Source: Halichondria panicea
Lineage: Eukaryota; Porifera; Demospongiae; Suberitida; Halichondriidae
DNA: 64,000 nt
Assembly: GCF_963675165.1 (NCBI RefSeq)
Contig: NC_087380.1
Span: forward strand, 7,326,517 to 7,390,516
Direction: 5' to 3'
A model generated the notes under the pieces. That model was not told where the DNA came from, did not search any database, and saw only the letters and a list, made by a program, of their open reading frames with translations. Numbering within the stretch: the stretch's first letter is position 1; every line of letters starts with the position of its first letter. This document shows positions 17,126-63,919 of the stretch, piece by piece. Made by a program: the position numbers and the translations under genes.

Positions 17126-17237
17126 ATCCCATTTTGGCCCTAAAAGCAGTGTGCATTACAATGGGGATCGTTACATATAATTATTGTCATCCAATTCATA
17201 CATTGCATGTGTGTATCTGAGTCACTACACAGACGTA

Positions 17238-30200: not shown

Positions 30201-31762
30201 AATTCCCCCAATAACGACTAATCCTCCAACGAACCCCCCAATAACGACTAATCCTCCAACAAACCCCCCAATAACGACTAATCCTCCAACGAACCCCCCA
30301 ATAACGACTAATCCTCCAACGAACCCTCCAATAACGACTAATCCTCCAACGAACCCCCCAACTGACCCTCCAACAAACCCCCCAGTAACTACTCCTCCAA
30401 CGAACCCCCCAACTGACCCTCCAACGAACCCCCCAACTGACCCCCCTGCAACTAATCCCCCTGCGACTACATCCCCTCCAGTAATGACTGCTCCGCCCAC
30501 TACTGCCCCGCCCCCTTGTCCTGGCGGCTGTCATCCTGACGCCAGCTGTGTCAACAATGTGTGCACATGTAACAACAATTTCCTTGGCAACGGTATCGAC
30601 TGCTGCATTCTTGAGACAGAAGTGATAGCAATCGTGGACGCAGGGGTGGGAGCAGGTGAGCTAACCTGTAGTGCAGAGGAGGTTCGACAGGCGCGGTGCA
30701 GCTCAAGTAATTAGCCTCTGATTACTCTCAGCAAAAACATACGACGTGGGCGGTGCGTGGGCGGATAATTACAAAGGCTAATTGCCTGCATGAGCTGCAC
30801 CGCGCCTGTCATACCTCCTCTTCCTGTAGTGTGTGCATGGTAAAGCAGTGTGTGTGCGTGGTTAGCAGTGTGTGTGCATGGTAAAGCAGTGTGTGTGCAT
30901 GGTTAGCAGTGTGTGTGCGTGGTCTGGTTAGCAGTGTGTGTGCGTGGGTTGTAGCAGCAGCTTAGCCAGATTTGCATTGACCTCAGGCCTTGTTTTTTGC
31001 ATACAATAATTATTTGTTTTGTGCCTGACCTTTATAGCGTTGTGTTAATTCATCTTTTTACCACTCACCAGATGCTACTAGATCAGGTTCAAGACGACCT
31101 GGTCGTTCTGCCAAGCATAGCAGGAGCTCCTCTTCTAGTAGCAGCTCTAGTAGCTCTAGTAGCTCTAGTAGCTCTAGTAGCTCTAGTAGCTCTAGTAGCT
31201 CTAGTAGCTCCTCCTCATCCTCATCCTCCTCCTCCTCCTCCGATATTGTCGAAGAGGAGTTACCCACAGTTGGTGAGTATCAGTCGACTAACTACTAACT
31301 TTGATCGCCCAATTCCTATTTTAATATAGTGTCTAGTATGTGTTACAGTATAGCATCTTTGAACAGCCCATAGATACAAAGATTCAATTTCAAAGCTCTC
31401 ATGCAGAACCTTAATTATATTTGTGTCTCCCCACAGACCCGGCCTGTATGGAAGTGTTGACCAACTTTTGTGAGCAATGCCTAGAGAACGGTACCTGTGC
31501 TAGTAAGTTAGCAACTGTCAGTGTGTCTCATTTAATTAATACACTCATTATACTACAGGAATCAGATCTCGGAGAAGAGGGAAATCCCGTCGTAAGAGTA
31601 AAAGTAGAAGCCACTCTCACTCTCGTTCAAAAACCTCAGGTATGTGTGTACATGTATGCATGATATATAGTAGCAACCATCAACTGTGTGCTCTCATATC
31701 CCCTTTCAGACTCCTCCCACTCAGGCTCCCCACTCACAGGCTGTAGAGCCATCCTCGGATAA
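27211..31762 (+). CDS. Secreted Ig/EGF protein with poly-Ser and RS-rich tail (paralogue A)
   Basis: 705 aa in nine exons: 27211-27262, 27543-27704, 27842-28120, 29203-29490, 29720-30655, 31072-31272, 31437-31502, 31559-31639, 31710-31762. Nearly all introns are phase 1 and the frame closes exactly. Order: signal peptide (1-17); Cys module (18-72) with CQLECFSECG, DCCNNGGGAFIDL and GCQTC; three Ig-like domains (about 73-355, with ANLQWVGPDG, DIEWTGPDG and DFGTYRC); a stalk of TTNPPTNPPI repeats (about 393-514); one EGF-like domain (GGCHPDASCVNNVC); SGSRRPGRSAKHSRS plus about 35 serines; DPACMEVLTNFCEQC; and an Arg/Ser tail (RSRRRGKSRRKSKSRS). No membrane span seen. Likely extracellular matrix or surface-associated. 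AATAAA lies at 31795. Whole-protein family unknown to me. Confidence 0.8.
28738..29200 (+). repeat. 47-bp minisatellite containing splice-acceptor-like units
   Basis: About ten units of roughly 47 bases (TATCTCTAATGACCCCCC... TCTTATCCCACCCCCCAC). The last unit ends CCCCCCACAG at 29202 and is the real acceptor of the Ig2 exon. The first two units also end CACAG, the middle ones CACGG. Confidence 0.92.
30676..30820. repeat. Fold-back element next to a splice donor
   Basis: Arms 30676-30705 and 30791-30820 (core GACAGGCGCGGTGCAGCTCA) are complementary at 28 of 30 positions. It begins 20 bases after the donor at 30656. A TGTGTGCATGGTTAGCAG minisatellite follows at 30826-30958. Confidence 0.85.
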
Positions 31763-33276
31763 TTGGTCGGCCAGTTAGGACAAGGACTATTCCTAATAAA
31801 CTGATGAACCCATAAACTCTAGAAAAAATAGAGTAGATATTGAATTATAGTGCCAAATTTTTGTATGACCCTTTCAACTGTGTGCATTGATCATTACTTC
31901 TCGGCATGTCTGCCAAGTTTGCCCTGTGAGGTTAAGGTCTGATTAGACCACTGACTATTCAAATGGGAATATGGAGGAGTAAGAGTGGGTGGTTGAAAAG
32001 TTGTCATGGTTCCACTGCTGCCCCCATTAACTACACTTAAGCATTGTACTTAACTTCCTACCTGTTGCAGATATACGTTTCCCACAAGCTTTGTGTAAGT
32101 ACGTACAACTTCCTGGCTTAATTAGTACTCAAATGGAGGTTTTGGGGTGGTTGAATGTAAGTTGTCATAGTTCCACACTAGCATTGTACTATAAGCTTCC
32201 ACTTATTGCATGTTGCCCACAAGCTTTGTGTAAGTACAACTTCCTGGCTAATTAGTACTCAATGGAGGTTTGAGGGTGGTTGAAATGCACGTTGTCATGG
32301 TTCCACTTGCCATTGGTTGTATTGAAATGTTGTCATGGTCCCACGCTAATTATTATTGCCACACAAACTTGTGCAAGTACAGATATCATTTCCTGGCTAC
32401 TCCAATGAGGTTTAAGAAATGTTGTCATGGTCTCACTTGTATTTGCTAATTATTATTGCCCACAAACTTGTGCAAGCACTGATGTTTAGATCATTTCCTG
32501 GCTACTCAATGGAGGTTTTGGTGGTGGTTGAAATGTTGTCATGGTCCCACTGCTCTCCATAAGAGAAATGTGCTAATTGTGGTGCTTGCAAGTACAGGTG
32601 AATTTTAGATCATTTCCTGGCGAGGTTTGAGATGGTTTACATGTTGTCACTGGTCGTGGTCCACTGCTCCATGCATAACTATAGTGTACCATGTGTACTT
32701 ACTATTATTCTGAGCTAGCTTTATATTATTATTGCTTGTATGCATGTACGTACAAGCATTGTGTTTGGCAGCAGCTTGTAACATATGTATATGTACTACA
32801 AGCATTGCTGAACACATGTACATATCTCCTGTTACCAGGTCACTGACACCTCCTTAGCAGCTAACTAGAGCTGTCACTGGCTGGTATCCCTTCAGGCATG
32901 CATGCCAAGCCTCTGATGCTTTTAGTTTAAATACTGGCCATGCAAGTTTCCGTGGTGATAATGTGATTCAGTAGAGTACATGCACGCTTTTTTAGGCGGA
33001 CCACTATAGTTAATAGGTAATGTTGGCTAAAAAGGATTGGGATTGGTCCGTGCATGATGCATCTGTCTGAGTACGTAGTGGGCGTGGTGGTGAACACCTG
33101 GGGGAGAACAGTGCCAGCCAAATGGCCAGGCATGTTCAATCTTCTATATTTGCCAACAAGTGTAATAATTCTCCCCCTGCCCACAAACACACGCCCCAGG
33201 GCTATAAAACTGAGGCCCTCAATTGCTCTGACAGTTGCAAGAAGTTCTTCCAGCACTATACAACAAAAGACCGAAA
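31763..33276. repeat. Spacer with degenerate 110-130-bp tandem repeats (31965-32660)
   Basis: About six imperfect units share GGTGGTTGAAATGTTGTCATGG, a 'tccactgc' box, 'cacaagctttgtgtaagtac' and 'acttcctggct'. No coding content. Confidence 0.7.
33203..33209 (+). promoter_or_regulatory. TATA box of paralogue B
   Basis: TATAAAA at 33203-33209, 68 bases before the ATG at 33277, in a locally GC-richer stretch (CCCAGGGCTATAAAACTGAGG). The spacing allows a short 5' UTR. Confidence 0.6.
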
Positions 33277-36200
33277 ATGATCAGGGGACTGTGTTTTGCA
33301 GTGTTCCTAGCAGCAACTTGTGCAGGTAATTTACTCTATACAACTGTATATAGAGTCTTTCATATGTACCACCTTCTCTCTCACACACACACAGTTACTA
33401 CTGGCCAAACGGTGGAGTGTTTTGATGTGTGTGGAGCGGCTGCCGTTAGTCTTGGAATTAATCCCTCACCTGCCGCATGCTGTAATGGAGGTGGTACTGG
33501 ATTTATCGACCTGAGCAATGAGCCGGCCGGCTGTTTGGAATGCAGCTCTTTGAGCAGTAAGCCCTGTTCAGTTACCTATTTCCCACCTCACCTCCTCCCT
33601 CTAGTACTTTCCTTTCTTTCTCACTCTCTATTATCATTATAGCTCTTGTAACTATTATATTTTTGTTATCCCCTCCCTTATTACACAGGCCTCACGGTAG
33701 CCCTAGGATTGTCCACCTCAGAGCTGGCTGTTGGCATGGACGGCTCCATCACTTGCTCAGTCACGTCCGAGGATACGAATAATCTAGTGGCAAGTATTCA
33801 ACTAGTGGGCCCTGATCGAAACATCATCATGGAAGTTAATGATACTGACAGTCTCACGTTTAATTTCTCGCCGCTCCAAGTGTCAGATATGGGAGAATAC
33901 GAGTGCCTAGCATCTGTGACATCACCTGACTTTCCCAGCCTGCCCCCCATTCCCGTCACCGGGACCATCGACATAAACATACCCAGTGAGTCATGTCATT
34001 CATTAGTGCTGTGCTGTACACATACTGCAGCGTACTTAACTATAGTGCATGCATGTGCATTATGCAGCTAGTATATACATAATTATACATTGAAGTATAG
34101 TGTACACAAAAATTGCATCGTTGTAATTATTATATATTGCCTTGTTCAATTGGTGCATGTACTGCATGTACTGCATATCTGCATGCTTGTTAGACTATAA
34201 GCGTCTGCATGAGGCGCTCACTACCCGTATTACTAGAATATTTTGCTGGTGAAAATCCTTAATTTGCGAATGAGCCAAATCAGCAGAAAAATTGACCCTT
34301 TGCTATCTATCCATTAATTTGCAAGGATCGTGTGTAATTACCAGGTTTTACAATTTTATTTTTTGTGAAGTGATCAACGCTCGCAACGTTCGCATTATAT
34401 TTGATGCTCACTAGTATAATACGGTATATTGATGTTAATTCTCTCCTCCCTATGCAGCACCGTCTGGTGTAGAAGTGACAATTATAGCTAGCTCCAACAC
34501 TCCGCTCGCTGGTCAACCAGTCACCATATCGTGTGCAATCGCTGCCGAAGGGCAGAGCATCCAGTGGGTGGGGCCAGACGGGCAGGTGATAATGACAGGG
34601 GGTGGATTCACTGTGGGGGATACTATCTCAGCAGGGGGTATCACTAGTAGTATCCTCACACTACCGAGTGTAGCCGAGAGTCAAAGTGGACGTTACTCTT
34701 GTGTGAGTGACCTCGGTAACATATCCCAGAGGATCGATGTGATGGGTGAGTGACATACAGAACAATGATGATGTATTATTACCGTGTATATAGCGGGTTG
34801 TTTTCCCGTATTTATAGCATTAATCTGAAAATTAAAACTGCGAAATTATTTACATAAATGTATCAAAATAACGCAGTGGTCCATACGGATTTTATACCTG
34901 CTATATTATATACGGTGTACTAACGTTTAATGTCCTATACTGTATAGCGCAAAATTTTCGCGGACTTCATGGGTTAGCAATTGTCCTACACTAAATTAGT
35001 CCACGAAAATTGTTAAAATTATCTGCTATATATAACGTGCAAAGATTAAAGGCGTGGCTTCCGGTAAGCAGTCATTCCACGAACATTGTGAAACCGAATG
35101 AAATGCTTTTAGAGGCCATTCCACGAAAAAAAGTTCGCGCTATATATATTGCTGCATGTTAATTATTAATTATGCACTCTCTTGCAGTTCGTGGTCCGAT
35201 TATAGACATCGTGGAACCCAGCGAACCTACAATGGTCGGTGAAACATTCATTTCAAAGTGCACAGGGACGGCTCCACCCGATATCGAGGGTGGTATGGTG
35301 TTTGCAACGTGGGTGGATGAAGATGGCTCTATACTGGCTGCCAACTCTTCCGTGGATGAGGTTTGTGTTACCCTCGTCATTAGCCCCTTTGTTCCTGGGA
35401 GTGAGGGAGAGTACCGCTGCGAGGTGAGGAGCTGCTCTGAGTACATCTGATATTGATTTTGATTGCCTGTTTTTCTTCGTGCAGGTATTCTACACTTCAC
35501 CACTGGTCACTGGTAATCCCGGTAGTACTGGGATTTTGAACATCACTCAAATGTTAGTTACTCAACCACCGCTAGTGACCACTCAACCACCCCCAGTGAC
35601 CACTCAACCACCACCTGTGACAACTCAACCACCTCCTGTGACAACTCAACCACCCCCAGTGACCACTCAACCACCACCTGTGACAACTCAACCACCCCCA
35701 GTTACCACTCAACCACCCCCAGTTACCACTCAACCACCACCTGTGGTTACTCGACCCCCTGCACGCAGTGAGTGCTATTATAGCAGTGACAAAGAGAAGT
35801 GTATGTGTACTATGCCAATGGCTAGTTATAGCTATTCAAGTTAAAGCATTAATTTTTACTACTGATGCTATAAATTGATATTGGAGCCGTTGCTAAAGCA
35901 CGTGATTATGGCAATACGTATTATAGTGTTGCCATGACTATAGTGGATACGTAATATCTGGTGCCCTTGTTTTTTTCAGATGAATGTGAGCTGGGAATTG
36001 ACAATTGCAGTAGACGGGAAGTGTGTCGAGAGCATGGCAATGGACGATGGAAAGAATGCACCAGGGTTGCTATGTGTATGGACACAGCTGAGGGATTTAC
36101 GTGTTCTTGTACCCCAGGATTCATGGGGGACGGTGTCACTTGTCAAGGTGGGTGGGGTGGGTGTGGTCATGTACAATAGTTGATTCTCCCAGTGTTAAAT

Positions 36201-48120: not shown

Positions 48121-51100
48121 TCATGTACGTGTTGTCACTGCAGTAAGTACAACAGCAGCCACCACTAGCGCTACAGAAACAAGAGTAAGAAAGTAGAAAC
48201 TAGCCCAACGCAGTTTGTTGTCTCCAGTCACACCACTGGAAATCAAGGGAGTTATTTCTTCCAGCTTCCCCCTCTTCAGACAAGACAAGCCTCCGAGAAG
48301 AGAGCCCGTCTTGAACAGTGCCTGAATGGTTGAGGGGGCTCGTAAGGCTCGCTCTGTGTGTGGGTGTGGGTGTGGGTGGGTTAAGAGAGATGAACGTTAT
48401 GATTCTAAGAGCTAATTATGACTTTGAAATTGTTAAATTACGGGCACTCAAAGATATTGAAACTAAAACACAGTACATGCTCACCTGTTGAGGGCGACCT
48501 TGCTGCTAGGAAAGAGAAGGTGGTCAAGAACGCGAGCACAGTTACCAGGAACACCACCTCCCAAGCCATCACCACCCAGAATACGCGAATGCTCGGGTCC
48601 AGCAAATAAGCCCCCGTGGCTATGTTGACAACTATGTGTGTGTGGGAGGGGGGGCGGAATGAGTTAGGGCAAAGCAGCAAACAGTTAGAACAAAGTATGT
48701 TAATATAGAGATGGGAATTAAGGAAACTAATCTCTCAGCTAATAATTGTCTGTACCTTCCCCCTGACTTACGTGCTAGCAGCAAAGAGATGAGACCCACC
48801 ACCTTCCCATGGAGGAGGTCAAATATCCACCTCCTGGGGTTGTCTGGGTTACATCGCAGGAGACCGATGATTGGCTATGGAGGGGAGGGTATTAGTTGTA
48901 CTATAATTATATGCTAACTCACATTGACCAGGTGCAGGGCCATCACAAGTATTCCCACAGAGAAATGAGCCGTATTTAGTACCTGAAAATAGAGAGAACA
49001 TTACATAAAAATCCATCCTATAAATGCCAGCTGTTTCTGCCCACCCTCAGTCTTCACCCACCTTCCCCTGACCGAGTGGAATAAGCCCGGGAGTGGCTTT
49101 ATGGATATGACCGATAAACACTGAGGCGAAACCAACCGCCCCCACAACCACAGACGTCAGCATCAGAGCACGGTGGATCTGTATAGTCATCATTGTAGCA
49201 CATCAGATAACACTTGACGTTTGCAACACAAGTTATGGCCTCTCAAAGTTAGCTACAAAAAAATTATTATATAGCCCATGCTTTTTCCCCGAAAAATGTC
49301 ACTAATTAAAAAAAAAAGAGCTCAGTAATATTAAAATAATACATAAATTGAAACCGGACGTTCGCAACACAAGTTATGGCTGCTCAAAATTCAAAAACAG
49401 AACCATCAAAGCTTTAAACAACAGTCAGTGGATATCCTATAATCATTACAGCCACTAATTACCTGAAACCATCCTCCACTAGGTAGGGCCGGCTTCATGA
49501 ACACAGGGAAGAAAATGGCCGTCACAACTAACAACGGCCATGTTATTAACATGAGTGAAGCGTGAGTCTTCACAAGAGCATTCTCAAAGTCCTTGTTCTC
49601 TCCAGTTGCTGTTCCGTTGCCATAGGTAATATTTATTTTTTTGTCACTGATCTCAGGGAGATGGGCAAAATCGTGAGCATTGAGAATGTCCAAAGTAGAG
49701 GCGTTCTTTGATCGCTTGCCAAACAGAACATAGAGGTCTTGGTTGAGGTTGATGTCAAACTCGTCTGATGGTAGGATACGCTTGATGACTCTGCGCGTGT
49801 GTGTGGGGGTGTGAGGGGGGTGGGTGGGGTAACAGTGAAATTAAGTTCTGTAGGAGTGTATAAGAGGGCTATGCTTTCATATCTTTGTATATGCATGTAT
49901 AATTATGTATGTGCATTATAATTATTCTTTGATACTACTGTCTACATACATGTATACTTTTTGGTAACGTAGATGCTAGTTATAACACACTGATTACACA
50001 CTCTCATGCATCATCACACAATGGTATACTAGAACTACAGCTTGCACAAGCTATAGGAGTATAGATATAATTAGCCCTCTTCCTCTTACTTGCAAGAAAG
50101 TCGTCCGTCCATGTATTTCCCCTCAAACAGATATACGTCCTGTATCTCGTCAGTGAGGCTAGTATGGGAGGGGCCACCAGGGTTGAACAGGTCTAGCACC
50201 ACCATCTTGTCTCCCAGGCGATTGCAAGCCACTGCATCTGCCTCAAACTAGAGGAGCAAGCAATTATAGAGATTGGAAAAGGTTGCACAATAGGTCATTG
50301 GCCTCCGAGGTGCTCCCCATGAACAAGAATAATCAGAAAATAGAACTATAATTATTATAATAAACAAGTCAATATTCCAATGAAAATGTGTACATTCAAT
50401 ATAAATATTATATTATTCAATTCAAGTACATATACATGAATTCAAATAGCCCATGTATCTCACAGCAACACTTGCTATGATGCATGCAGATGCTCACCAT
50501 GCCCGCAGAGTGAGTGAAGCCAACGCCCACCCATCCTTCCGCTTTACCCTCCATGTAGATATCCAACCAACTGTCGTTACCACGATTAGTATCTATGGCA
50601 ACGTACACATTACAGTCGCCAATGCCACAACCTGATGGATTTTGAAACTGGAGCCGATATTTGTCTGGTGTTTTGATTGGTGGAAGAGTGTTACTAGGGG
50701 CAACGCTAACAGGGGGTGGTCCCTGGGAAGTGATGGTATATAATTAGTGAGAGCGTAGGATGATATCTAACTTACCAGTTGAGCAGCACTGAGCTGGTCA
50801 AAATGGACAGCCTTCTCTCTCATCACAGTATAGCTAAAGGGGGCGGGCGGTGCATGCATGGATATAAAGTATACCTGGAAAATTTGACGGGACGGGTATT
50901 ATTATTTGGCAGATGAACCATTTGATGAACGTATTTGGCGGTTTTTAATTTAACGTCTCAGGCGTGGCTACTACTGCAATGACGTTGTGTCCACCGGATT
51001 TTAAATTTTGCCATCTTCGGTAAATCCGTCAAATCGCCAAATTAAAACACCTACCAAATTTTCCAGTTATACGCTATAGTAAGCTGTGATTTACAGAAAT

Positions 51101-52158
51101 CATAATTATACATGCAGGAATAAGGAATTAACAGTTTCTCCAAACATGCCCAAATGTACAGTGCATTACAATGAACACCCCCTCGGTTCAAGCGAATTGT
51201 CACACACTCACAAGAAGTCCACAGTGCCATTGCTCAGTGGTGCTGTCCAGGTGAGCTGCACTAGGGAGCGGGGGAGAGCGTTGCTATGAGCTACAGTGGC
51301 CTGTGTATAGGGAGTACAATATTCATGACATCACATGTCGTGCATGCCCAAAGAGAGACAAGTATATGTAAGCAATATTCATACACTAAGCAAAGGGGGA
51401 GGAGGTTGGTCATATAGCTTACCAAAAGGATTATGTAAATTATAGACTAATAATTTGATAGAGTATGTAAAACTATGTACATGCACACCATAATTAATTA
51501 ATTATGTGAAGGAAGAATAGTTGGACACAATGCACACAAACTAACCTCAGCAGACACGCCCCCCTGATCACAGCTGAGGGTCTTTGCTCCGTCACTGACG
51601 GCTGTGAACTGGCCAATCAGACGAGGAGCAGCAGGAGGGGGCGTGGCAGGGTCCCGAGCTTGTATTATAAATCCCTTGAAGAAGTGAGTTGTACCAACCA
51701 GCTCAACTGCACGATCGAGAGGAACTTGAGACAGTCATGACGATGCATCCACTCTTCTATAGTGTGCTATCACACTTAGCAGAACAACAGACCAGTATGT
51801 TGCGTACACTATAGATCTAGATTATACATGCAAAACCTCGACCATTGTGCTCGACTATAGATCTGATTATATATATACATGCAAAACCTCGACCATTATA
51901 CTCGTCTAGATTTGATTTATATACATGCAAAACCTCACCATTATACTCGACTCCAGGCTCATAGTGAAAGGCTTTAGTAAGTGGAGGCTGCAACTGAAGC
52001 AGGTATCCACCATGTCCACTGTGTGAGGGTCCATGGGTTTGTAGGCTGGGGCTGAGCTCCTTGCACACTACATTGGGGTAGTCTGCAGCTGGAGGGCCGC
52101 TAGGATAGCCTGATACACTGCACAGCAGCAGCACTACTACTAAAAGAAACTCTTGCAT
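48121..52158 (-). CDS. Reeler-DOMON-cytochrome b561 protein (FRRS1-like), gene C
   Basis: 632 aa, close to FRRS1 (about 592). Exons: 52158-51939, 51706-51546, 51300-51212, 50833-50776, 50722-50498, 50247-50090, 49790-49463, 49178-49062, 48982-48923, 48874-48772, 48631-48485, 48353-48121; all in phase. Signal peptide (MQEFLLVVVLLLCSVSG), Reeler domain (about 20-195, with FFKGFIIQARDP and LTWTAP), DOMON (about 196-345, with CNVYVAIDTN and DIYMEGKAEGWVGVGF), then a six-helix b561 core. The four haem-ligand histidines are in KTHASLM, IHRALM, NTAHFSVG and LLHGKVVG. Family members move electrons across membranes, for example to ferric iron. It is the only array member with one DOMON and a complete b561 core. 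Confidence 0.88.
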
Positions 52159-52397
52159 CTTGCACTGCACTACTAGCTGCACTACTAGCACTGCTTCTTA
52201 GGCCGATTTTTTTTAAACATCGTGAGGAAAACCTCGTGACTTGAGCGGCGTAGAAGCGAGGATATTGAGAGGGTAGTTTCTCCTTATTATAGCCGCCCTC
52301 GCCATAATTATAATACAATACTGAACAGTCATCTCGGTAGTTTTATGCTAACTACTCTTTGTTCTAACTGCTACTGTTTGTTTGTTCACAGGTTGCT

Positions 52398-55300
52398 CTA
52401 AGGGAAGGCCACCATGACGATCACAGCCAACAGCATCGGCACAGACACGCCCACGTAGACAATGAACGCTCCCCAACGGAGGGGGGAATCTTTGGAGGGG
52501 GTCTTGCGTTCTGGTTCGCCCTCTACTTCCTTCTCTTTGTCTCCCGGTGAGGTCATCTCCATTGCCTGACTCTTGTCCTCACGGATGAACCCTCTGACAG
52601 AACTGTGAGCACAATCTGTGGGGAAAGGATGTTATACCTGAAACTCCATACTAGCATGGCACTTACTGCTCTGTTTGGTCTTGCAAGCATACACTGAGAA
52701 GAAGATGGCACCGCCGACAAGGATTATAACCTGGAACACAATCCACGCTATAAACACCCAGAGTGGAACTTGGTTGGGGGTGGGGGGACCAAAGGTTGAA
52801 CTGCGGTCTCTTGTGAAGATAGAGAGGCCAAAGGCACAGTTCATAACTGATGGGGGGGTATTCATTGATGAATAGAATTTTTATATTTTATTTTTAAATG
52901 GTACTTACGAGCCAAGGTTTGTGACCAGAACCCAATCATGTGTCCATGTACCATGTTGAAGATCCAACGTCTGATAAAATTTACAAGTACATTTTATATA
53001 AAGTTAGATGTACATACATACCTCTTGTTGTCCGGTTTGCAGCGAAAAAGGGCAAGGATAGGCTGTCATAATAATTATACAGAACATAATAGTTAATAGT
53101 GAAATAATAATGAACTTACATTGGTGATTTGAAAGGCCACTATGACGATGCCAATAATCATGTGAGCTAAGTTCAGATTCTGTGTCGGAGGGAGGGGGTG
53201 GGGTAGGCTAGCATAGTACAATCAGAACATGCAGGCATGGACACTCACCCCACTCGTGTTCACGGGTCCCATCAATCCTACAAAGATGAGAATAAAGCCG
53301 ATTAGCGTTATGACCAGTGAGATCAGCATGAGCACTCGATGGACCTGGATGGGTTCAGTTAATCATTAAACATACACACAGCAATATTTATATTATAGTG
53401 AACTCACTTGAAACCACTCTCCATTAGGCAGAGCCGGGCGCATAAACGTTGCAAAGAAGATGCCAATTGTAGCCAGCAGAGGCCATGCAATAATCATGAA
53501 GATGCCGTGAGCACGGATCAGGTTACCCGTGTGGACAGACTCTCCGACAACTCCCCTGGAGTTAGCAGGAGAGGAACGGGCGTTGGATACGGCACTGGCA
53601 CCATTCCCGGAGTGGGACATAATACCGTTAGCCAAAGTGTTGTCAGCTGTGCGACGAGCAAATATCACATACAGACTGTCATCCAAATTTAAATCCTCTG
53701 AGTTCGATGGAACAATACGCTTGGACACACTGCATGGAGACGAAATAATTATTGTAACGGGTTAGTTTTAGTTTTAACATACGTGCAAGAAATCCTTCCA
53801 TTGACGAAAGAGCCATTGAATAACCCGACGTCCTGTACAGTGTCTATGCTGTTGCTTCTCCCTGGCCCTTGAGGGTTCCAAGCATCCCATGCGCTGATCA
53901 TATCATCCGTGCTGTTTCTCACACAAGTCACCACGTCAGCATTAAACTATTATAGAGGAATTATAATTATAGTACAGGGTTATGACTAGCCATCTTTGAG
54001 TGGGCGTTTTCTCAATACTGCTGTTTTACAGCTTCGAGTTTCCAAATCGCATAACTCAGGCATGGAACGAGGTGTGTGTACACTAAGCATATCATTGCGT
54101 AGGTAATTTTTTGCTCTATCATCTGGTATACAGATCGCAAAAATTATAGCTATATGGCATGGACACATGCAACTCACCATGTTAGCAGAGTCACTGAATC
54201 CCACAGCCACCCATCCTGCAGCTGTGCCCTCCATATAGATATCCAGGAATCCATCATCTCCAGTGTTGGTGTCTATACCAATGAACAGATCACAATCAGC
54301 ACGAGAGCAACCGGTGGGACTGAGTATCTGCAGGCGGTACTCTTCAGGAGCTCTCACAGGAGCCATGGTAGGAATAGCGCTAGTAGAGGCAGTGGTGACA
54401 GTGTAACGGACAGCACTGGGAGCTCTAGTGGATGGCTGAGCAGGATTTACAGCATGACTTTGAAGGGAATCGAGTGATGTCGACACGGTGATACGACGAG
54501 CGTAGAGTACATAGAGGTCAGTTGACAGGTCCAGGTCCTCCCCCGCTCCATTCAGAGCAATCCTCTTGGATACACTAAATGAGAACAGACAAATTAGAAA
54601 ATTAATTGGAATTTCTTAATGGTTCGTGTAATCATGCCTCAGGGTGTAATAAATTGTTACAATGGCGTACGTGCAAGAAAGCCTTGTGTTAGTAGCATTA
54701 TAGCTTGAAGTGTAGAGGGTTACGTCTTGAAGAGTGTCTCGGGTGTTGTTTCTTGTACCAGCGGGGAGGTTCCAACCATCAATGGCCACAATGTCACCAT
54801 CCACTCTGTTGCAGGCCACCACATCCGCTGAAAACTGCCAAAGGTCATGTGGACATGTTATGCAACGGTTGAGTCTATAAAAACAAGTCTAAGCCTGTGA
54901 TAATGTCTAAATAAACAACTTGACCCCACGCAGACAATGTTTTGATTAACACTATTGGTAAGGAGGCCATGCGCAAAGTTATTTGTTCTTGTGCTTGGAA
55001 TTTGGTAGCTTTCCCCAAAAAATTAAATATCATGTGACTCCAATTCAGAGGCACTAAAAGTACGTCACGAATAGCTTTCCCAAAACAGTATTGGTAAAGG
55101 AGGCCATGCAAAGTCAATTTGTTCTTGTGCGCTTGGCTTTCCCAAAAATAGCTTTCCCAAAAAGTTAAATATCATGTGACTCCAATTCAGAGGCACTAAA
55201 AGTACGTCATAAACAATTATAATTATGACTAAAAATTAATTATACTTTCGCTTATTATCGGCTCATTTATAGAAATAGTAGCCTGAGAAACTACAAATTT

Positions 55301-56621
55301 GTTTGGCCTAATAGATTGTAGTGGATTCAATATCTTTGTATATAATTATACCTACCATACTACGAGTTTCACTGAATCCCACAGCCACCCATCCTGCAGC
55401 TGTGCCCTCCATATAGATATCCAGGAATCCATCATCTCCAGTGTTGGTGTCTATACCAATGAACACGTTGCAGTCAGCACGAGAGCAGCCCTCAGGGTGG
55501 GAGCGAACAAATCTGTACTCGTCAGGTGATCGTACGGGAGCAGTGGTTGTCCCAGCAGGGAGGTCGATGGGAGGAGCCATGGTGGTGGGAGGAGGCATGG
55601 TGGTGGGAGCTGGTGTCTGGGGGAGAGGGTGGCAATCAGATTATTGAAGATCCACTGTACTTCAGACTTCATCTGCTGATACATAATCATACGCATGCAT
55701 AATGATTGTGGTTGACAAAGAAAGAGGGCAAGGCCCATGAATCTACTTGAGGCCTCCCCATGGGGGGGGGCTAGGATCATGATTATCCATGAATAAGGTT
55801 ACGGCTACATTGCACATACTGTCACTCCCACTAGACTTGCACTAATGGCATCGTAATGCATGGCCTGAACACGAACAACAGTGTAGCTGTATGGTGGAAA
55901 TGACAATTCAAATATATAAATTGCTATACATAACTCCACTCACTAAAAGTCCACATCCCCTGCAGTCATGGGGGCTGTCCAGGTGAACTGCACTGAGGTG
56001 GCATCAGCTTGATTTTGGGAGTGGGCAATGGTAGCCTGTGGACAAAATAATTATAATTATAGAATGCATTATGTACAGAACACTAAAATTAATGTCATCT
56101 ATTCAGTCAGTTTATCCTAACAGCATTCTCAATAAGTGTTAACATTACCTCATTAGCTGCTCCTGCCATTAGATCACAGGCCAGTGTTTGTTGACCGCTG
56201 ACAGTCTGGAAGGAACCCAGTAGCATTGGATCTACTCCAACACTAGGAGTGTCACCAGGCATTCTGGCTTGGACTAGGAAACCACGGATGCTATTTCCAA
56301 ATAGACGAACTAGAAAAAACAATTATAATTAGATACAGAAAAATAGGTAACTAGATCTACGTATCAATACAACGCACTCGTGTAAACAGTGCCAGTCTCG
56401 TAAGTGAATCCATTGGTAGCTGTTGCCATTGTAGGAGATATCTCCAGTCTGTATCCACCATCTCCAGATTGAGGGTCACCATGGTTGTTACGGTTTGGGG
56501 TCATCTGCTGGCATACCAGGGCTTCATTGGCACTGGGACTGAGAGGTGGACCCGAGGACATGCCAGTCACTGCATGGAGACTGCAGCAGGTTACAAAGAA
56601 CGCTAACAGGAGGACTCGCAT
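52398..56621 (-). CDS. Reeler-DOMON-DOMON-cytochrome b561 protein, gene D
   Basis: 842 aa in 15 exons: 56621-56378, 56309-56149, 56035-55944, 55886-55820, 55616-55356, 54834-54671, 54574-54178, 53946-53783, 53729-53408, 53344-53249, 53179-53120, 53062-53022, 52970-52909, 52846-52667, 52615-52398; in phase throughout. Signal peptide (MRVLLLAFFVTCCSLHAVTG), Reeler domain, a TPAPTTMPPP linker, two DOMON domains (each with CxxFIGIDTNTGDDGFLDIY), then b561 helices with histidines in RAHGIFM, VHRVLM, NLAHMIIG and MVHGHMIG. It ends with an acidic cytosolic loop and a final hydrophobic helix (VGVSVPMLLAVIVMV). Membrane oxidoreductase by family. The extra DOMON came from duplication of exon pairs within the array. 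Confidence 0.88.
53987..54155. repeat. Internal copy of the 17238-17557 element
   Basis: TTTGAGTGGGCGTTTTCTCAATA, CGAGTTTCCAA and CATAACTCAGGCATGGAACG match the inside of the element at 17238-17557 but without its inverted ends. It sits in the intron between the exons ending at 54178 and starting at 53946. Confidence 0.75.
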
Positions 56622-57152
56622 CTTGAGAGCAGATCTAGATCACTATAAAAAATAATCCCTTATAAATTTTTGCTGTGACTTTTAGTGACACACCCATCCA
56701 TAGAAGCTAAGCTATATAGGCGTTCCCAGGCCGATTTTTCTCTTTTATATATTTTACAGAAAGCATCCTGGCGTTATTTTAGAGACAACTCGGCCTGAGG
56801 ATTGTATCTGCATTTCCAGTATTGCGAAATTAATGCATTGGAAATTGCATGCTCAGTTGCAATGCAACAAATCTACAGTGGAACCTCCATTAACGACCAT
56901 ACGTCCATAGATTAAAGAGGTTGTTTTCTCGTTAAACATTGATCTTTATATAGTGCACATCATTACGCTCACTGGGCACTGCAATGACACGATGACGTTA
57001 AACACGACTCTCCATGCATGGCCTGCAACTTGTATTGACATTTTTATTGTTGAATGAACAACAGAAAACACACTAAATCTATCAACACTAAATCTATCTA
57101 ACTACGATAATTAGTACACAATTGTTAATTTTGTTCACGCGTTGGCTGACAT
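56622..57152. other. Spacer between genes D and E
   Basis: Holds the 3' flank of gene E and the promoter of gene D. It matches 62560-62981 (the 3' flank of gene F) over most of its length, so it was duplicated together with the genes. Confidence 0.65.
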
Positions 57153-60100
57153 CTAAAGTGAGGTTACCATAACGATCACAGTCAGCAGCATTGTAACAAT
57201 GCCAAACATACTCTCTCGCATCGCACCAGAGGTGGAGGAGGCAGGAGAGAAACGGGCGCTGGATACGCCACGGGCACCATTCCCAGCCCCGGAGTGGGTC
57301 ATAATGCCGTTAGCCAAAGTGTTGTCAGTTGTGCGACGAGCATAATTATATCACCCACAGGTTGTCATTCAAGTTTAAATCCTCCGAGTTCGATGGAACA
57401 ATACGCTTGGACACACTGCACAGAGGATGTATACAATTATTTCTGAGACAATTCGGTTCTAACATACGTGCAAGAAATCCTTCCATTGACGAAAGAGCCA
57501 TTGAATAATCCCACGTCCTGTACAGTGTCTATGCTGTTGCTTCTCCCTTGAGGGTTCCAAGCATCCCATGCGCTGATCCTATCATCCATGCTGTTTCTCA
57601 CACAAGTCACCACGTCAGCATTAAACTAGAGGAATATATAGTACAGGCGGGTAACCGGATACTAACACAATATAGCCGCATGGACACAACTCACCATGTC
57701 AGCAGTTTCACTGAATCCCACAGCCACCCATCCTGCAGCTGTACCCTCCATATAGATATCCAGGAATCCATCATCTCCAGTGTTGGTGTCTATACCAATG
57801 AACAGATCACAACTAGCACGAGAGCAACCGGTGGGACTGAGTATCTGCAGGCGGTAATCTTCAGGAGCTCTCACAGGAGCCATGGTAGGAATAGCGCTAG
57901 TAGAGGCAGTGGTGACAGTGTAACGGACAGCACTGGGAGCTCTAGTGGATGGCTGAGCAGGATTTACAGCATGACTTTGAAGGGAATCGAGTGATGTCGA
58001 CGCGGTGATACGACGAGCGTAGAGTACATAGAGGTCAGTTGACAGGTCCAGGTCCTCCCCCGCTCCATTCAGAGCAATCCTCTTGGATACACTAAATGAG
58101 AACAGACAAATTATAAAATTCTAATGTAAGTGCGTAATCATGACTCAGGATGTAATAAACGGTTACATGCAATGGCGTACGTGCAAGAGAGCCTTGTATT
58201 AGCAGGATCATAGTTTGAAGTGTAGAGGGTTACGTCTTGAAGAGTGTCTGGGATGTTGTCCCGTGTGTTAGCAGGGAGGTTCCAACCATCAATGGCTACA
58301 ATGTCACCATCCACTCTGTTGCAAGCCACCACATCCGCCGAGAACTGCGAAGGTCACGTGCATGCATGGATATGTTACGCAACGTTTTATAAAAACAAAT
58401 CTAAGCAAACCACTTGACCCACAAACAAACAAACAGATTGACTTAGTGGTAATAAAAACGTATACAGTAGATTCAAACATTTACCATATTAGGAGAGTCA
58501 CTGAATCCCACAGCCACCCATCCTTCAGCTGTGCCCTCCATATAGATATCCAGGAACCTATCATCTCCAGCGTTGGTGTCTATACCAATGAACACGTTGC
58601 AGTCAGCACGAGAGCAGCCCTCAGGGTGGGAGCGGACAAATCTGTAGTCATCAGGTGATCGAACAGGAGCAGTCTGGGGGAGGGGGACAATCAGATTACT
58701 ATAGCGGGAAATTTTCGTGGGAGTTTTTATCCCGGTTTTAATTTTCGCGTTAACTGCTCTGCCATCAAAACACGCAAAATGTTGAACCTCACGAAAATGT
58801 CCCGCTATACGGTATTGAAGATCCACTGTAGTATTACCATACCAGGACACTATTACCGTATAGAGGGTAATTTTCGGGGGACAAAACATTCGTGGTTCAA
58901 CAATATTGAGACATTTCGTGGGTAATATTTTCGTGGTTGGAGCTTGAACTGCAGGTAAAGGTAGGCAAGGTCGCTTCATTCGTGGGTAAAATATTCGTGG
59001 TCAGAGCTTCAACCACGAAAACCACGAATATTTTGCACCACGAAAATTACCAGCTATACGGTATGCAACAGCATGCACCTGTGCATATATACAACCACAA
59101 TTATAGAAAGAAGCCATGTATAATCGTGGGATAAGGTTACGGCTATTGCACATACCGTCACTCCCACTTGACTTGCACTAATGGCGTCGAAATGTGTGGC
59201 CTGAACACGAACAACAGTGTAGCTGGATGGGGGAATGATAATTCAAATATACCAATTGCTACAGAATTCCACTCACTAAAAGTCCACATCCCCTGCAGTC
59301 ATGGGGGCTGTCCAATTGAACTGCACTGAGGTGGCATCAGCTTGATTTTGTGAGTGGGCAATGGTGGCCTGTAACAAATTAACATGGTTATAACTGTATA
59401 CAGAACTCTAGTCACCTAACAGTATTCTCAATTAAGGCCATCCAAGCAACCTGTTTCACAGACTTTCATCAGGCTATAGAAGAATGTGATATAGTATAGC
59501 GTCTTTATTTTCGAGGAGCTAATATTTCACAGATCTAAACATTTCGAGAGATTTACTTTCGAGGATAGAGAATATATGGGGTGCCGTTTGTCTCAAAACT
59601 AATAAAGAGTCGATGTTTACCAACAAGGTCGATGTTTACCTACCAGATCGATGTTTAGAGACAAATTTATGCTTATCAGATCGATGTTTAGCAACCAGAT
59701 CGATGTTTAGCATGCAACCAGATCGATGTTTAGCAAAGCTACCAGATCACACAAAGTGCAGATATTAGGGCGTGGTTTCTTGTGATACTTAATTAGAATT
59801 ATGAATTGTGCTAGCTAGTTGCAAGATGTTATAGCCATTGCTCTTACTACTGCTGTTACAAACAGCGGTTTACTTAGTAGATTCTGAAGATGAAAATAGC
59901 ACATATAGAGAAAGCCCTACAGTAAATAGAGAGTTTGATAACTGGATTTTTGAGGCACTAAAATTTCAATTGCGAAAGTTTAGCTCCTGGAAAATAAAGA
60001 GGTTTCCCCAAACCCCTGTATGTTGTGACAAGCCTCATAAGGGTGAGAGTGGGAGTTGTGGTTTCCTTTTTATAGAGTCTAACCAATTACCGGGATGAGT

Positions 60101-60921
60101 GGCCACTACATGCATGGCTTCTGTAAATGTGTTAAGGTAACGTTCAAGAGTAACTTTAAACATGAATAGGAGGTACCATTAACTATTTTACTTAAATCGT
60201 TCCATAGAAAACAGCTGTTAATAATATTTGAAACAGTTAACTCTTGTCTGCCTGAACAGGAATGCTTAATTGTGCAATCTATAGTTGCTATGCAGGTTGT
60301 TGGCTTCCCCAAACCGGGTAAGGTGCATTGGTAAATAAGCCTTGTAAGGATGGGAGTTTCCTCTTAGAATTAGGCTTCCCCACCACACTAGTAAGTGTGG
60401 TAACAAATAGAGACCCACTTGTACTCCATGAAACATGTAATTAAGTATTAACATTACCTCATTAGCTGCTCCTACCATCAGATCACAGTCTAGTGTTTGC
60501 TGACCGTTGCCAGGCTGGAAGGAACCCAGTAGCATTGGATTTACTCCAACACCAGGAGTGTTACCAGGCATTCTGGCTTGGACTAGAAAACCACGGATAC
60601 TATTTCCAGCTAGACGAACTAGAAAAAACAATGATTAGATACAGAAAAATAGGTAACTATGTATCAATACAACGCACTCGTGTAAACAGTGTCAGTCTCG
60701 TAAGTGAATCCATTGGTAGCTGTTGCCATTGTAGGAGATATCTCCAGTCTGTATCCACCATCTCCAGATTGAGGGTCACCATGGTTGTTAGAGTTTGGGG
60801 TCATCTGCTGGCATACCAGGGCTTCATTGGCAGGGGTATCGATAGGTGGACCCGAGGACATGCCAGTCACTGCATGGAGACTGCAGCAGGTTACAAAGAA
60901 CGCTAACAGGAGGGCTCGCAT
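57153..60921 (-). CDS. Reeler-DOMON-DOMON protein lacking b561, with frameshift, gene E
   Basis: Exons 60921-60678, 60618-60458, 59368-59277, 59222-59156, 58673-58485, 58344-58181, 58091-57695, 57625-57468, then from 57415. Read as is, the last exon stops at TAA 57348-57346 (NDNLWVI, stop), giving 513 aa: signal peptide, Reeler and two DOMONs, with no membrane anchor. Compared with gene D at the same place, E carries four extra bases (GCATAATTATATCAC against GCAAATATCAC). Beyond them the old frame continues through ARRTTDNTLANGIM to a hydrophobic tail (FGIVTMLLTVIVMVTSL) ending at 57153. The whole b561 core is missing: D's linker is fused directly to the last helix exon. Either a soluble product or a decaying gene. 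Confidence 0.7.
58699..59063. repeat. Two adjacent fold-back elements in a gene E intron
   Basis: 58699-58816 begins TATAGCGGGAAATTTTCG and ends CGAAAATGTCCCGCTATACGG. 58855-59063 begins ACCGTATAGAGGGTAATTTT and ends AAAATTACCAGCTATACGGT. Both belong to the TATAGCGG family. Confidence 0.8.
59495..60457. repeat. Gene E intron with an ATCGATGTTTAG tandem repeat
   Basis: 59608-59747 has six imperfect copies of CCAGATCGATGTTTAGCAA. Before it, 59495-59575 resembles 11857-11940 (GCGAATTTTGCGA/TTTTCGAGGATAGAG). The rest, up to the exon end at 60458, has an open frame from 59838 that lacks an ATG and is not called. Confidence 0.6.
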
Positions 60922-62981
60922 CTTGATATCAAATCTAGATCGTTTATTTACTGCTAACAGTAAAATCATAGATACTATAGAATGGTAGACCGTACAGTAT
61001 TAATTAAAAGGGCTGCATGTTGTGGCCATTATATAGAACAATGAGCATGCGCATTTAGTTTGCCTCGATTCCAAGCCGCCTGGAACTCAGAGATTTTTCC
61101 ACACCTGTTTACCCTGTGCGCGTGCGCAGGGCACAGCAGAGGTGAACAGAAGCTCTGAGTTCAAAGGCCGCTTTGAAATTTACAATCAGGTTGCACAATG
61201 TTAGTCTGTTGTTAGCAGCACTGCTAGCATTGGACTTGGAGGTCTCGGTCCCAAGGACAATGCTAGATCTGTCCCATAGTTCCAGTAGAACTCCAAAATT
61301 TGAAGACAAAAATTAATATGTACTGTAGCACAAGCCACACAGTATTAAAGGAAGTGAAGATACCAGACTATTTTGGTAGACCGAGACGTTGCAGATCTCA
61401 AGGATTGCTTTCACTTGCACAGTACGGCCTGGGAAGTGGTGAAACAAAAAGTGAGATAGTATGAAACGTATCGAGTTGATGGACATAGTGGAAAAGAAGA
61501 AACAAGAGTGGAGGTGGTGGGAAGGGTCTCAGTCTTTACTGATACTAGATATCTACATCAGACATGTATCTATATATACCATGTACCAGCTAGCTATTTA
61601 GACTATCTTACTTGTGCCATAGATAGTACAGGGTACATGGTTCACCACAAGGAGGCTAGCAGCGACTGCAGTCTGCTCCCCCTAGTGCCAGGCCCTAGCT
61701 AGCTAGCTAGCTCCAGGGGCGGATCCAGAAAGGGGGGGCTAGTAGAAAGGGGCAAAGCCCCATACGAGGGTGGTGGAGCCACCCAGGGGGTGGGTATGGG
61801 AGGGGGAGCATCCCCCTCCCGGCGACATTTTTTGCTTTTTACAATTTGCTCACACTTTACCTTTGAACTGTCATATTAATAAGTGAATACTGAATATGAA
61901 AAAGTTAATACAAAAAACTCGTTCTAATCAACAAAAGGATGTATACTGTAGATGTTACATCTACATTCATGCACTCTTGGTACATGAAAGAATCACAATG
62001 CCTACCCAGACTGCACTGAGAGTGAGAGGAGGTAAGGCTGCTTCCTTGCAACTAGCTGAAAAAGTCTGAGATATGCTCCATGTTGCAGCTCAACAGCATG
62101 CACAATAGCCTCCTTCACAAGGCCTAGGAAGAGAGGCCTGGGATATGAGGCTACAAAACATTGCACAAGGAGCTGACTCAGCAACAGCAATAGGGTCTAG
62201 TTGACCTATGCACTTTATTAGTTCTAGCTAGCTATAGCTAGCTAGTATGTCCAGCTAGCTAGCCTACATCCTTTATACTCTTAGTAGCTAGACTTGGCTG
62301 TTGTCTAGCATCTCTTAAGTCAGTGAGTCTACATGCAGATGCATAAGTAACAAGTTGGTGGCAAAATTGTTGTAACCTCAGACTAGCAATACATAGGTAG
62401 TTTTTCAAAAGGGGGGGCTTCAGCTCCTCAAAACCACCCCCTGGATCCGCCCCTGAGTTCGCTCTGAAGAACTTGAAATGATTTTGACAGTTTGCCATTG
62501 TTTTGACGTTGCCGCAAGCCTGCAAGGTTCAAAGGTCGACGTTGGACATATTCCTGATTGTACCTGTATTGACACACCCAATAGAAGAGAAGAGGCGTCC
62601 CAAGCCGATTTTTTCTCTTTTAGATCTACATAATACAGAAAGCCTAGCGTTAATTTTTTTTTGGGAAATTGCATACATGTACTCAGTTACACATGCAACT
62701 ACAGTGGAACCTCCATTAACGACCATAGATTAAACATCAACATTGATGTTTATATTATAGTGCACATCATTATGCTCACTGGGCACTGCAATGACACGAT
62801 GACGTTAAACACGACTCTCCATGCATGGCCTGCAACTTGTATTGACATTTTTATTATTGAATGATTGAGCCACGATTATTTTAGTAAACAACAGAAAACA
62901 CACTAATCTATCAACACACTAAATCTATCCTGAACTACGATATTTAGTACAATTGTTAATTTTGTTCACGTTGGCTAACAT
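60922..62981. mobile_element. Spacer between genes E and F with a non-autonomous DNA transposon (61714-62455)
   Basis: CAGGGGCGGATCCAG at 61714 and its exact complement CTGGATCCGCCCCTG ending at 62455 bound a 742-base element. Poly-G runs lie inside both ends. The outer flanks AGCTAGCTC and AGTTCGCTC are a possible decayed target duplication. The end sequence is of a type common in hAT-like elements. No transposase frame is present. A lone end (GGATCCGCCCCTG) is at 28673. Confidence 0.7.
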
Positions 62982-63919
62982 CTAAAGTGAGGTTACCATG
63001 ACGATCACAGCCAGCAGCATTGGAACAATGCCAAAGATACTCTCTCGTATTGCACCAGAGGTCTGGGGGGGGGGGGGGCAATCAAATTAATTATTACCAT
63101 ACCAGGACTTTATGCACCTGTGCCAGTGTATATCATGTATATAATAATTATTATAATTATCAGGAGCCCATAAATAAGAGAAGGGGCGGCTAATTTTTCA
63201 ACGTATACTCGGGATGACGTTTCGTAATTGCTGGTGAAACCGCACTTCCTTGTACATGGAAGCAACTAAGTGCTTGCAAACCGCAGCCCTGTATTGCGTA
63301 TAACACGTGTAGGGATTCAACCACTTAGTGACTCTGCATAATAATTATATGGAAATGCGGTCATGCATGCACTTATGAAACGTGATCCCCATTGTCAGCC
63401 GCTCCTTGTCTTATTTATAATTATATAGGCTCCTGATTATATACAAGGTTGGTTAGGGTAATTATGCGTGGTTATTCTATTTTTGTGTCAATTTATAAGA
63501 GCAGTAAGTAAGCGTTATTGGTATCTATAATTATGCCGACTTGTACTAACATAGCGATAATGATTCAATACCTTTCGCGGGGTGAAATACAATACCCTAA
63601 CCTTAAGCCATGCATGTATGAATGATTGTGATCAACATAAACCAATGAACAATGTACCCCTGGGGTAATCTATATATAGGATCAAGACTATATATGGTAT
63701 GGCTACATTGCACATACTTGACTTGCACTAATGGCATCGTAATGTGTGAGCCGAACACGAACAACCGTGTAGCTGTATGGGGAAATGATAATTCAATATA
63801 CAAATTGCTATACAGAATTCCACTCACTAAAAGTCCACATCCCCTGCAGTCATGGGGGCTGTCCAGGTGAACTGCACTGAGGTGGCACCAGCTTGACTTT
63901 GGGAGTGGGCAATGGTAGC
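62982..63919 (-). CDS. Reeler protein with hydrophobic tail, no DOMON or b561, gene F (5' part off the right edge)
   Basis: Three exons in the window: 63919-63828 and 63772-63718 encode the end of the Reeler domain (ATIAHSQ, FTWTAPMTAGDVDF, YTVVRVRLTHYDAISASQ). Exon 63062-62982 then joins in phase 0 and encodes TSGAIRES plus the hydrophobic FGIVPMLLAVIVMVTSL and a stop. The tail is 27 codons, small residues followed by a 17-residue hydrophobic end, which fits a GPI-anchor signal or a bare membrane tail. Genes D and E have the same Reeler exons (92 bases for the first), so F is a shortened family member. Unlike E it has no frameshift in view. Signal peptide and first Reeler exons lie beyond base 64000. 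Confidence 0.72.
63063..63717. repeat. Gene F intron with a dispersed repeat
   Basis: 63161-63331 repeats 26220-26350 (CAGGAGCCCATAAATA, AAGTGCTTGCAAAC, GTATTGCGTATAACA, GGATTCAACCACTTAGT). A 13-base C/G run (63064-63077) forms the polypyrimidine tract of the terminal exon's acceptor. Confidence 0.7.

Follow-up and report, generated by a model that had tools for sequence, protein, structure and literature searches.

A tandem array of predicted CYBDOM-type genes in the sponge Halichondria panicea, with two copies probably shortened by deletion

Gene content of the locus

The stretch of DNA analysed here (the window; 64,000 nucleotides, C4:7326517-7390516 of a 131-Mb genome in 39 contigs) comes from the sponge Halichondria panicea and holds part of a tandem array of genes with Reeler, DOMON and cytochrome b561-like exons. 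An initial annotation had placed four such genes, C to F, within 48121..63919 and described them as a Reeler gene array with stepwise loss of redox modules. For the present analysis, the window was extended by 40 kb on its right and 20 kb on its left, and the resulting 124 kb were compared in six frames with exon peptides taken mostly from D and C (tblastn, E-values up to 0.01). Coordinates follow the window numbering, in which positions above 64000 fall outside the window, and all gene models of the array are predictions from splice-site modelling.

Across the 124 kb, Reeler, DOMON and b561-like exons were confined to ~48-89.6 kb, all on the minus strand, and chance can be excluded for the array copies because tblastn gave an E-value of 2e-4 or below at every listed place. 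The exons make up eight head-to-tail genes, C to J, with 1, 2, 2, 0, 1, 6, 3 and 3 DOMONs respectively, and among them only E and F are missing the b561 part.

52158-48121, minus strand: gene C; signal-peptide-like start, Reeler, one DOMON, b561-type helices and last transmembrane (TM) helix; 12 predicted exons, 630 amino acids, no internal stop
56621-52398, minus strand: gene D; Reeler, two DOMONs, b561-type helices and last TM helix; 15 predicted exons, 842 amino acids
60921-57346 (shifted-frame tail 57350-57153), minus strand: gene E; Reeler, DOMON1 and truncated DOMON2; 9 predicted exons, 513 amino acids to the stop
65054-62982, minus strand: gene F; Reeler and a tail exon; 5 predicted exons
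69862-66162, minus strand: gene G; 13 predicted exons
80446-70981, minus strand: gene H; 28 exons, a nominal number
84802-80662, minus strand: gene I; 17 predicted exons
89576-85522, minus strand: gene J; 17 predicted exons

The description of C to F as head-to-tail genes with matching Reeler exons was borne out: all four lie on the minus strand, their intron phases agree, and Pfam finds a Reeler in each. The array nevertheless extends past the limits first given to it, as 63919 is the start of the third exon of F, F itself begins outside the window, and G, H, I and J continue to 89576. Introns of phase 1, 0, 2 and 0 follow the four Reeler exons, and corresponding exons keep their phase across the eight predicted genes. 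The DOMON exon triplets of H have phases 0, 2, 0 each; in D, E, I and J the third exon of a DOMON is fused to the first exon of the next one, and the last intron was modelled as GC-AG in H, I and J.

Domain identification

The Pfam Reeler profile (PF02014) scored above its cut-off in all seven genes scanned (C, D, E, F, G, I and J), while the Reeler of H was assigned by similarity. Pfam PF03351 found one DOMON in C and in G, two in D and in E, three in J and two in the two-unit piece of H that was scanned, and none in F; the scan of J covered the ectodomain and that of I the first 191 residues, and the six DOMONs of H and three of I were counted from tblastn exon matches and unit alignment. 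A putative haem Met is present in all 18 DOMON units of the array and a His, judged by position, in 17, the sole unit without it being the truncated second one of E. The use of Met and His as DOMON haem ligands is taken from work on related DOMONs (PMC10691727, PMC10784544).

Two genes outside the array share its modules. Gene K (C5:6112819-6119501, plus strand), which stands nearest to C among the genes found outside the array, has one DOMON and a b561-like part. About 110 kb to the left of the window, gene M (C4:7213347-7216325, plus strand) has a Reeler (E-value 2.7e-18) joined directly to b561-like helices; the four b561 His are in line and its predicted model is without a DOMON, which makes it a different kind of module combination. 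The b561 parts that were compared, seven in number (C, D, G, H, I, J and K), share four invariant His, and the b561 identity of these helices is very likely because of the architecture together with this His pattern. With Reeler, haem-binding DOMON and cytochrome b561 predicted side by side, the array is of the CYBDOM type (FRRS1/SDR2/CG8399-type).

Relationships among the genes

In the Reeler, DOMON and b561 trees alike, C groups with K (support 100/100 each). A linear series from C through D and E to F is thereby ruled out, and C stands outside the succession of losses that had been proposed for the four genes. In the DOMON tree, the first DOMONs of D and E pair (100/99), as do the second ones (92/99); the doubling in D therefore predates the split of D and E, and the second DOMON of D is a gain relative to the one-DOMON genes. 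This gain, and the presence of further array genes with 1, 3, 3 and 6 DOMONs, are at odds with a single ladder of shortening. In the comparison of Reeler and DOMON phylogenies that had been suggested as a check, C goes with K in both; the DOMON tree gives the D1/E1 and D2/E2 pairs, and the Reeler places F with D and not with E.

Contigs C17, C14, C9, C1 and C12 hold further Reeler matches and a separate DOMON group, the latter near C1:14.86-14.92 Mb. When seven other Reeler loci were compared with the models of C, D, G and J, only the locus on contig C17 (E-value 0.006) and K matched.

Loss of the b561 part in E and F

Three short segments bear on this loss.

53408-53729, minus strand: exon 9 of D (end of DOMON2, linker and first b561 helix), in which the deletion of E and F starts (alignment)
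52397-52443, minus strand: part of the last TM exon of D with a surviving counterpart in F (63027-62981, 83% over 47 bp) and in E (57191-57152, 80% over 40 bp)
57156-57233, minus strand: tail of E, in which the last TM exon is represented by its second half (D 52443-52397) and preceded by a linker-like stretch; b561 helices 1-5 are missing (alignment)

E resembles the exon 9 region of D until E 57233 (D 53557; 84.1% over 434 columns) and thereafter resembles F, with which it shares the tail and the 3' flank (85.7% over 329 columns). The match to the last TM exon of D begins at E 57191 and F 63027. Neither gene retains b561 helices 1-5 or the opening portion of the last TM helix; what is left of that helix, one half, ends the protein as a hydrophobic C-terminus. 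The sequence accordingly indicates that a D-like two-DOMON gene became an E-type gene through a deletion of about 1.1 kb (by the measure of D): b561 helices 1-5 were removed, and the DOMON2 exon came to run, at its end, straight into what remained of the last TM exon, its second half. In a multiple alignment, the ~37 bp between the D-like and last-TM parts of the tail resemble the linker that G and J have in exon 9. Probes of 134 and 123 bases from the tail and 3' flank each matched two places in the genome, E and F, in a search that passes over very common words and simple repeats; the idea that the tail is a genomic repeat was consequently rejected.

E carries a second lesion, located by aligning E 57647-57233 with D 53978-53557 (84.1%, 434 columns).

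About 57348-57345, minus strand: 4-bp insertion in E relative to D, in the last strand of DOMON2

The insertion shifts the frame and produces a stop at 57348-57346, leaving the tail in another frame (57350-57153). Therefore, the assembled E encodes a Reeler, DOMON1 and a DOMON2 that stops short within its last strand and lacks its haem His, and E as an intact two-DOMON gene is ruled out. A cryptic intron of 100 nt (57359 to 57258, weak sites) could restore the frame of the tail, and would skip the last DOMON strand and its His. I infer that E codes for a secreted Reeler-DOMON protein or else is an intermediate in decay. The domain lists of the initial annotation hold as far as Pfam DOMON counts go; they did not include the frameshift in DOMON2 of E or the half TM exon that E and F retain as a hydrophobic C-terminus.

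Loss of both DOMONs in F

65054-64811 and 64738-64578, minus strand: Reeler exons 1 and 2 of F, outside the window (splice-site model)
63919-63828 and 63772-63718, minus strand: Reeler exons 3 and 4 of F (splice-site model)
62982-63062, minus strand: tail exon of F, in phase 0 after Reeler exon 4, with 18 mostly hydrophobic residues just before the stop (splice-site model)
58674-58698, minus strand: acceptor of the DOMON1 exon of E, resembling D 55643-55617 and F about 63089-63063 (sequence comparison)

The acceptor ahead of the tail exon of F (aattaatttgattgcccc...ccag/AC, the slash marking the splice site) matches the DOMON1 acceptors of D (aataatctgattgcc...ccccag/AC) and E (agtaatctgattgtcc...ccccag/AC), the common form being taatYtgattg...ccccag/AC. 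None of 300 shuffles matched as well as F and E do, where the match is partly a run of C and the shuffles keep only the single-base make-up. A 17-mer in intron 4 is common to E and F and not found in D. As the tail exon of F stands behind the DOMON1 acceptor of D and E, a second deletion removed both DOMONs: most simply, F would have lost everything between the DOMON1 acceptor and the tail. F still carries the tail that it shares with E, and its second deletion starts at the DOMON1 acceptor.

F is open over 210 codons, with phase 0 kept after its deletions, and its tail has 26 residues, the last 18 with a mean hydropathy of 2.59; its signal peptide was read by eye. The product is most likely a surface or secreted Reeler without a redox part, which at the cell surface would be held by a glycosylphosphatidylinositol (GPI)-type signal or by the single hydrophobic tail. 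Stepwise loss can accordingly be retained for a D-like, an E-like and an F state, which two nested deletion scars connect. Clean shortening between phase-compatible exons describes F, which reuses a phase-0 acceptor, but not E, where the loss of b561 fused two exons internally and the frame is shifted. Likewise, the proposed conversion into anchored or soluble proteins is plausible for F and unproven for E.

DOMON multiplication and a hybrid gene

In other genes of the array, DOMON exon triplets have multiplied, up to six in H. Among these six units, the most in the array, three are 99-100% identical over 1.2 kb, and the copy number may reflect the assembly.

H is a hybrid of G-type DOMONs and an I/J-type b561 part. 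Within its exon 9, identity over the first 240 alignment columns is 85-97% to G and 52-67% to I/J; over columns 240-300 it is 95-98% to G, I and J, and beyond column 300 it is 98-100% to I/J and 80% to G. The b561 region including introns is 93.9% identical to I and 55.9% to G. Approximately unbiased (AU) tests reject both G+H for b561 (p 1.9e-5) and H unit 1 with I/J for DOMON (p 2.6e-4). Synonymous divergence of the H Reeler is 0.20 to G as against over 2 to I or J, and the Reeler DNA tree leaves G and H unresolved beside D-F. Exon 9, which lies between ectodomain and membrane, is the site of both the switch in H and the deletion in E and F.

Origin of the array and alternative explanations

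I consider it probable that the array arose by tandem expansion from a CYBDOM gene and was remodelled by recombination and deletion. Several observations weigh against this reading or parts of it. The Pfam b561 profile (PF03188) matched below threshold in D and H (E-value 0.0047) and K (0.012) and gave no match for C, G or M, and a five-part b561 profile compared with solved structures returned no b561 match and two chance matches to lectins at E-value 0.5. The likeness of the 37-bp linker is weak, being equalled in 12 of 200 shuffles for G, 26 for J, 53 for I and 155 for H, where the H segment may miss the linker and the score of D (5/200) derives from flanking DOMON2-exon sequence. The Reeler exons group F with D and not with E (98/96 for protein, 93/91 for DNA), and an E+F grouping of the Reeler DNA is rejected weakly (p 0.039). 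With its Reeler closest to D and its tail to E, the two ends of F therefore differ in their nearest relative, for which exchange between neighbours is the simplest reason. The Reeler protein tree similarly groups H with I/J (82/87) and not with G. Lastly, the gene models are all predicted.

A competing view, which I hold to be less likely than not, is that E and F are decaying tandem copies, pseudogenes which lost parts at random and give no product under selection; it is compatible with the same deletion history. The frameshift in E favours it, as does the ratio of nonsynonymous to synonymous substitution rates (dN/dS) of the Reeler, which is 0.43-0.85 in five recent pairs, each with an interval that includes 1. 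These intervals also count against the preferred history, and they do not show constraint on the Reeler of F (D-F dN/dS 0.43, interval 0.17-1.07). The ratio was 0.13-0.64 for DOMON in six comparisons and 0.16-0.44 for b561 in four (D-G being saturated); going by the point estimates, the Reeler is the fastest-changing module in most comparisons. Against decay, after two deletions F keeps a start, its open 210-codon frame, phase-correct splice sites and an in-frame hydrophobic tail, and its weak first donor is found in D and E as well.

It is unlikely that part of the pattern is an assembly artefact of collapsed, expanded or misjoined repeats. Such an artefact would most likely affect H, in which DOMON units 3 and 5 show no difference over 1208 bp and unit 2, with a 2-bp deletion, is 99.3% identical to both. 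In contrast, the divergence among D, E and F is 5.6-10.4% in the two exon blocks that were compared and 3.4-21.9% in intron 1, and the three genes align in blocks only, with long unmatched stretches between; this divergence and block-wise alignment mean that they are not one locus assembled several times.

The Reeler exons of E and F might instead splice onto exons of the downstream gene to give hybrid CYBDOM transcripts, as phases would permit (the end of E exon 8 and the start of D exon 9 are both phase 2, and the end of F exon 4 and the start of the DOMON1 exon of E both phase 0); this is improbable, however, given that every gene has its own start exon, that F has its own in-frame tail with a stop, and that a tail which the probes find in E and F only is hard to explain if it is never used. 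Equally doubtful is an order in which a single deletion in a full gene first gave F, with E taking DOMONs back from D through unequal crossing over: the grouping of the F Reeler with D rather than E speaks for it, but the intron-4 17-mer is common to E and F and not D, the DOMON1 acceptor of E stands where that of F does, and regain needs exchanges at exact boundaries.

On the reading of a CYBDOM array remodelled by recombination and deletion, the locus offers a natural gradation that begins with a membrane electron-transfer protein and ends with a Reeler free of redox parts; the scars of the deletions can still be read, and in adjoining genes the haem domain is multiplied to three or six. As a speculative and rather unlikely extension, the array may be a module-swapping system in which a fast-changing Reeler and a variable stack of haem-DOMONs are recombined with different b561 bases via one hinge exon, yielding graded proteins that range from H, as a long conduit for electrons outside the cell, to F, as a surface protein with the Reeler alone. 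If so, the up to six DOMONs of H would make for up to eight haems counting those of b561.

Other genes in the window

Further features were identified in the window away from the array.

3-3031, minus strand: cadherin repeats in open frames that belong to a cadherin-type gene (Pfam E-values 5.7e-79 for 1367-3028 and 1.6e-10 for 6-1340)
9125-9565, plus strand: EH domain fragment (E-value 2.9e-5), with coiled-coil and DPF-rich frames downstream
15749-17155, minus strand: open frame of 469 codons with a weak protein-kinase match below the Pfam cut-off (E-value 5.5e-5, 23.1 of 31.7 bits)
29175-34068, plus strand: frames with immunoglobulin domains, close to a long threonine/proline repeat (TTNPPTNPP...) that may be a mucin-like stalk

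The EH, coiled-coil and DPF-rich frames from 9125 on the plus strand resemble a gene of the EPS15 type involved in endocytosis.

Function and comparison with known systems

The architecture, the deletion scars and the hybrid structure of H are read from the sequence, and the electron path is argued from the family. The b561-bearing copies would pass electrons from cytosolic ascorbate through the b561 haems to the DOMON haem or haems and on to outside acceptors such as ferric iron. A route from cytosolic ascorbate via b561 and DOMON haem to outside acceptors has been proposed for HYP1 (PMC10784544), and CG8399 and SDR2 reduce ferric iron in vitro (PMC10691727). The functions of DOMON and Reeler in CYBDOMs are stated as not known (PMC10691727); with the array, the role of a Reeler that has no b561 becomes testable in one organism, and so does the question whether additional haem DOMONs carry electron transfer further beyond the cell. 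Reeler-only arthropod proteins bind microbes (PMC12113285), which by analogy may serve as a lead for the function of F. Among the matches listed for sponge CYBDOM arrays and tandem DOMONs, judged from titles and the starts of abstracts, there was no paper on this locus; a sponge skeleton-proteome paper among them mentions DOMON once (PMC4633127).

Human FRRS1/SDR2 and Drosophila CG8399 have the combination of Reeler, DOMON and b561 that is predicted for the array, with the Met/His pair in the DOMON and four b561 His (PMC10691727), whereas here there are eight tandem copies with 0-6 DOMONs. Two DOMONs were reported in 19 of 888 insect CYBDOM hits (PMC10691727), as compared with 2, 3, 3 and 6 in D, I, J and H. 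For an E-type protein, the functional parallel would be AIR12 of Arabidopsis, a GPI-anchored DOMON protein without b561; AIR12, however, has one DOMON and no Reeler in that account (PMC10784544), while the tail of E is out of frame as assembled, and E could work in an AIR12-like manner only if its frame were rescued. FRRS1L is related to FRRS1 and lacks the reductase domain; it is said to consist only of a DOMON and a transmembrane domain (PMC6398485), whereas F kept the Reeler and lost the DOMON. Like F, the secreted Reeler-only proteins Noduler, LvReeler and PcReeler of arthropods are small and nearly filled by the Reeler, with a signal peptide in the LvReelers (PMC12113285); F differs from them in lying within a CYBDOM array and in its 26-residue C-terminal tail, the last 18 residues of which are mostly hydrophobic.

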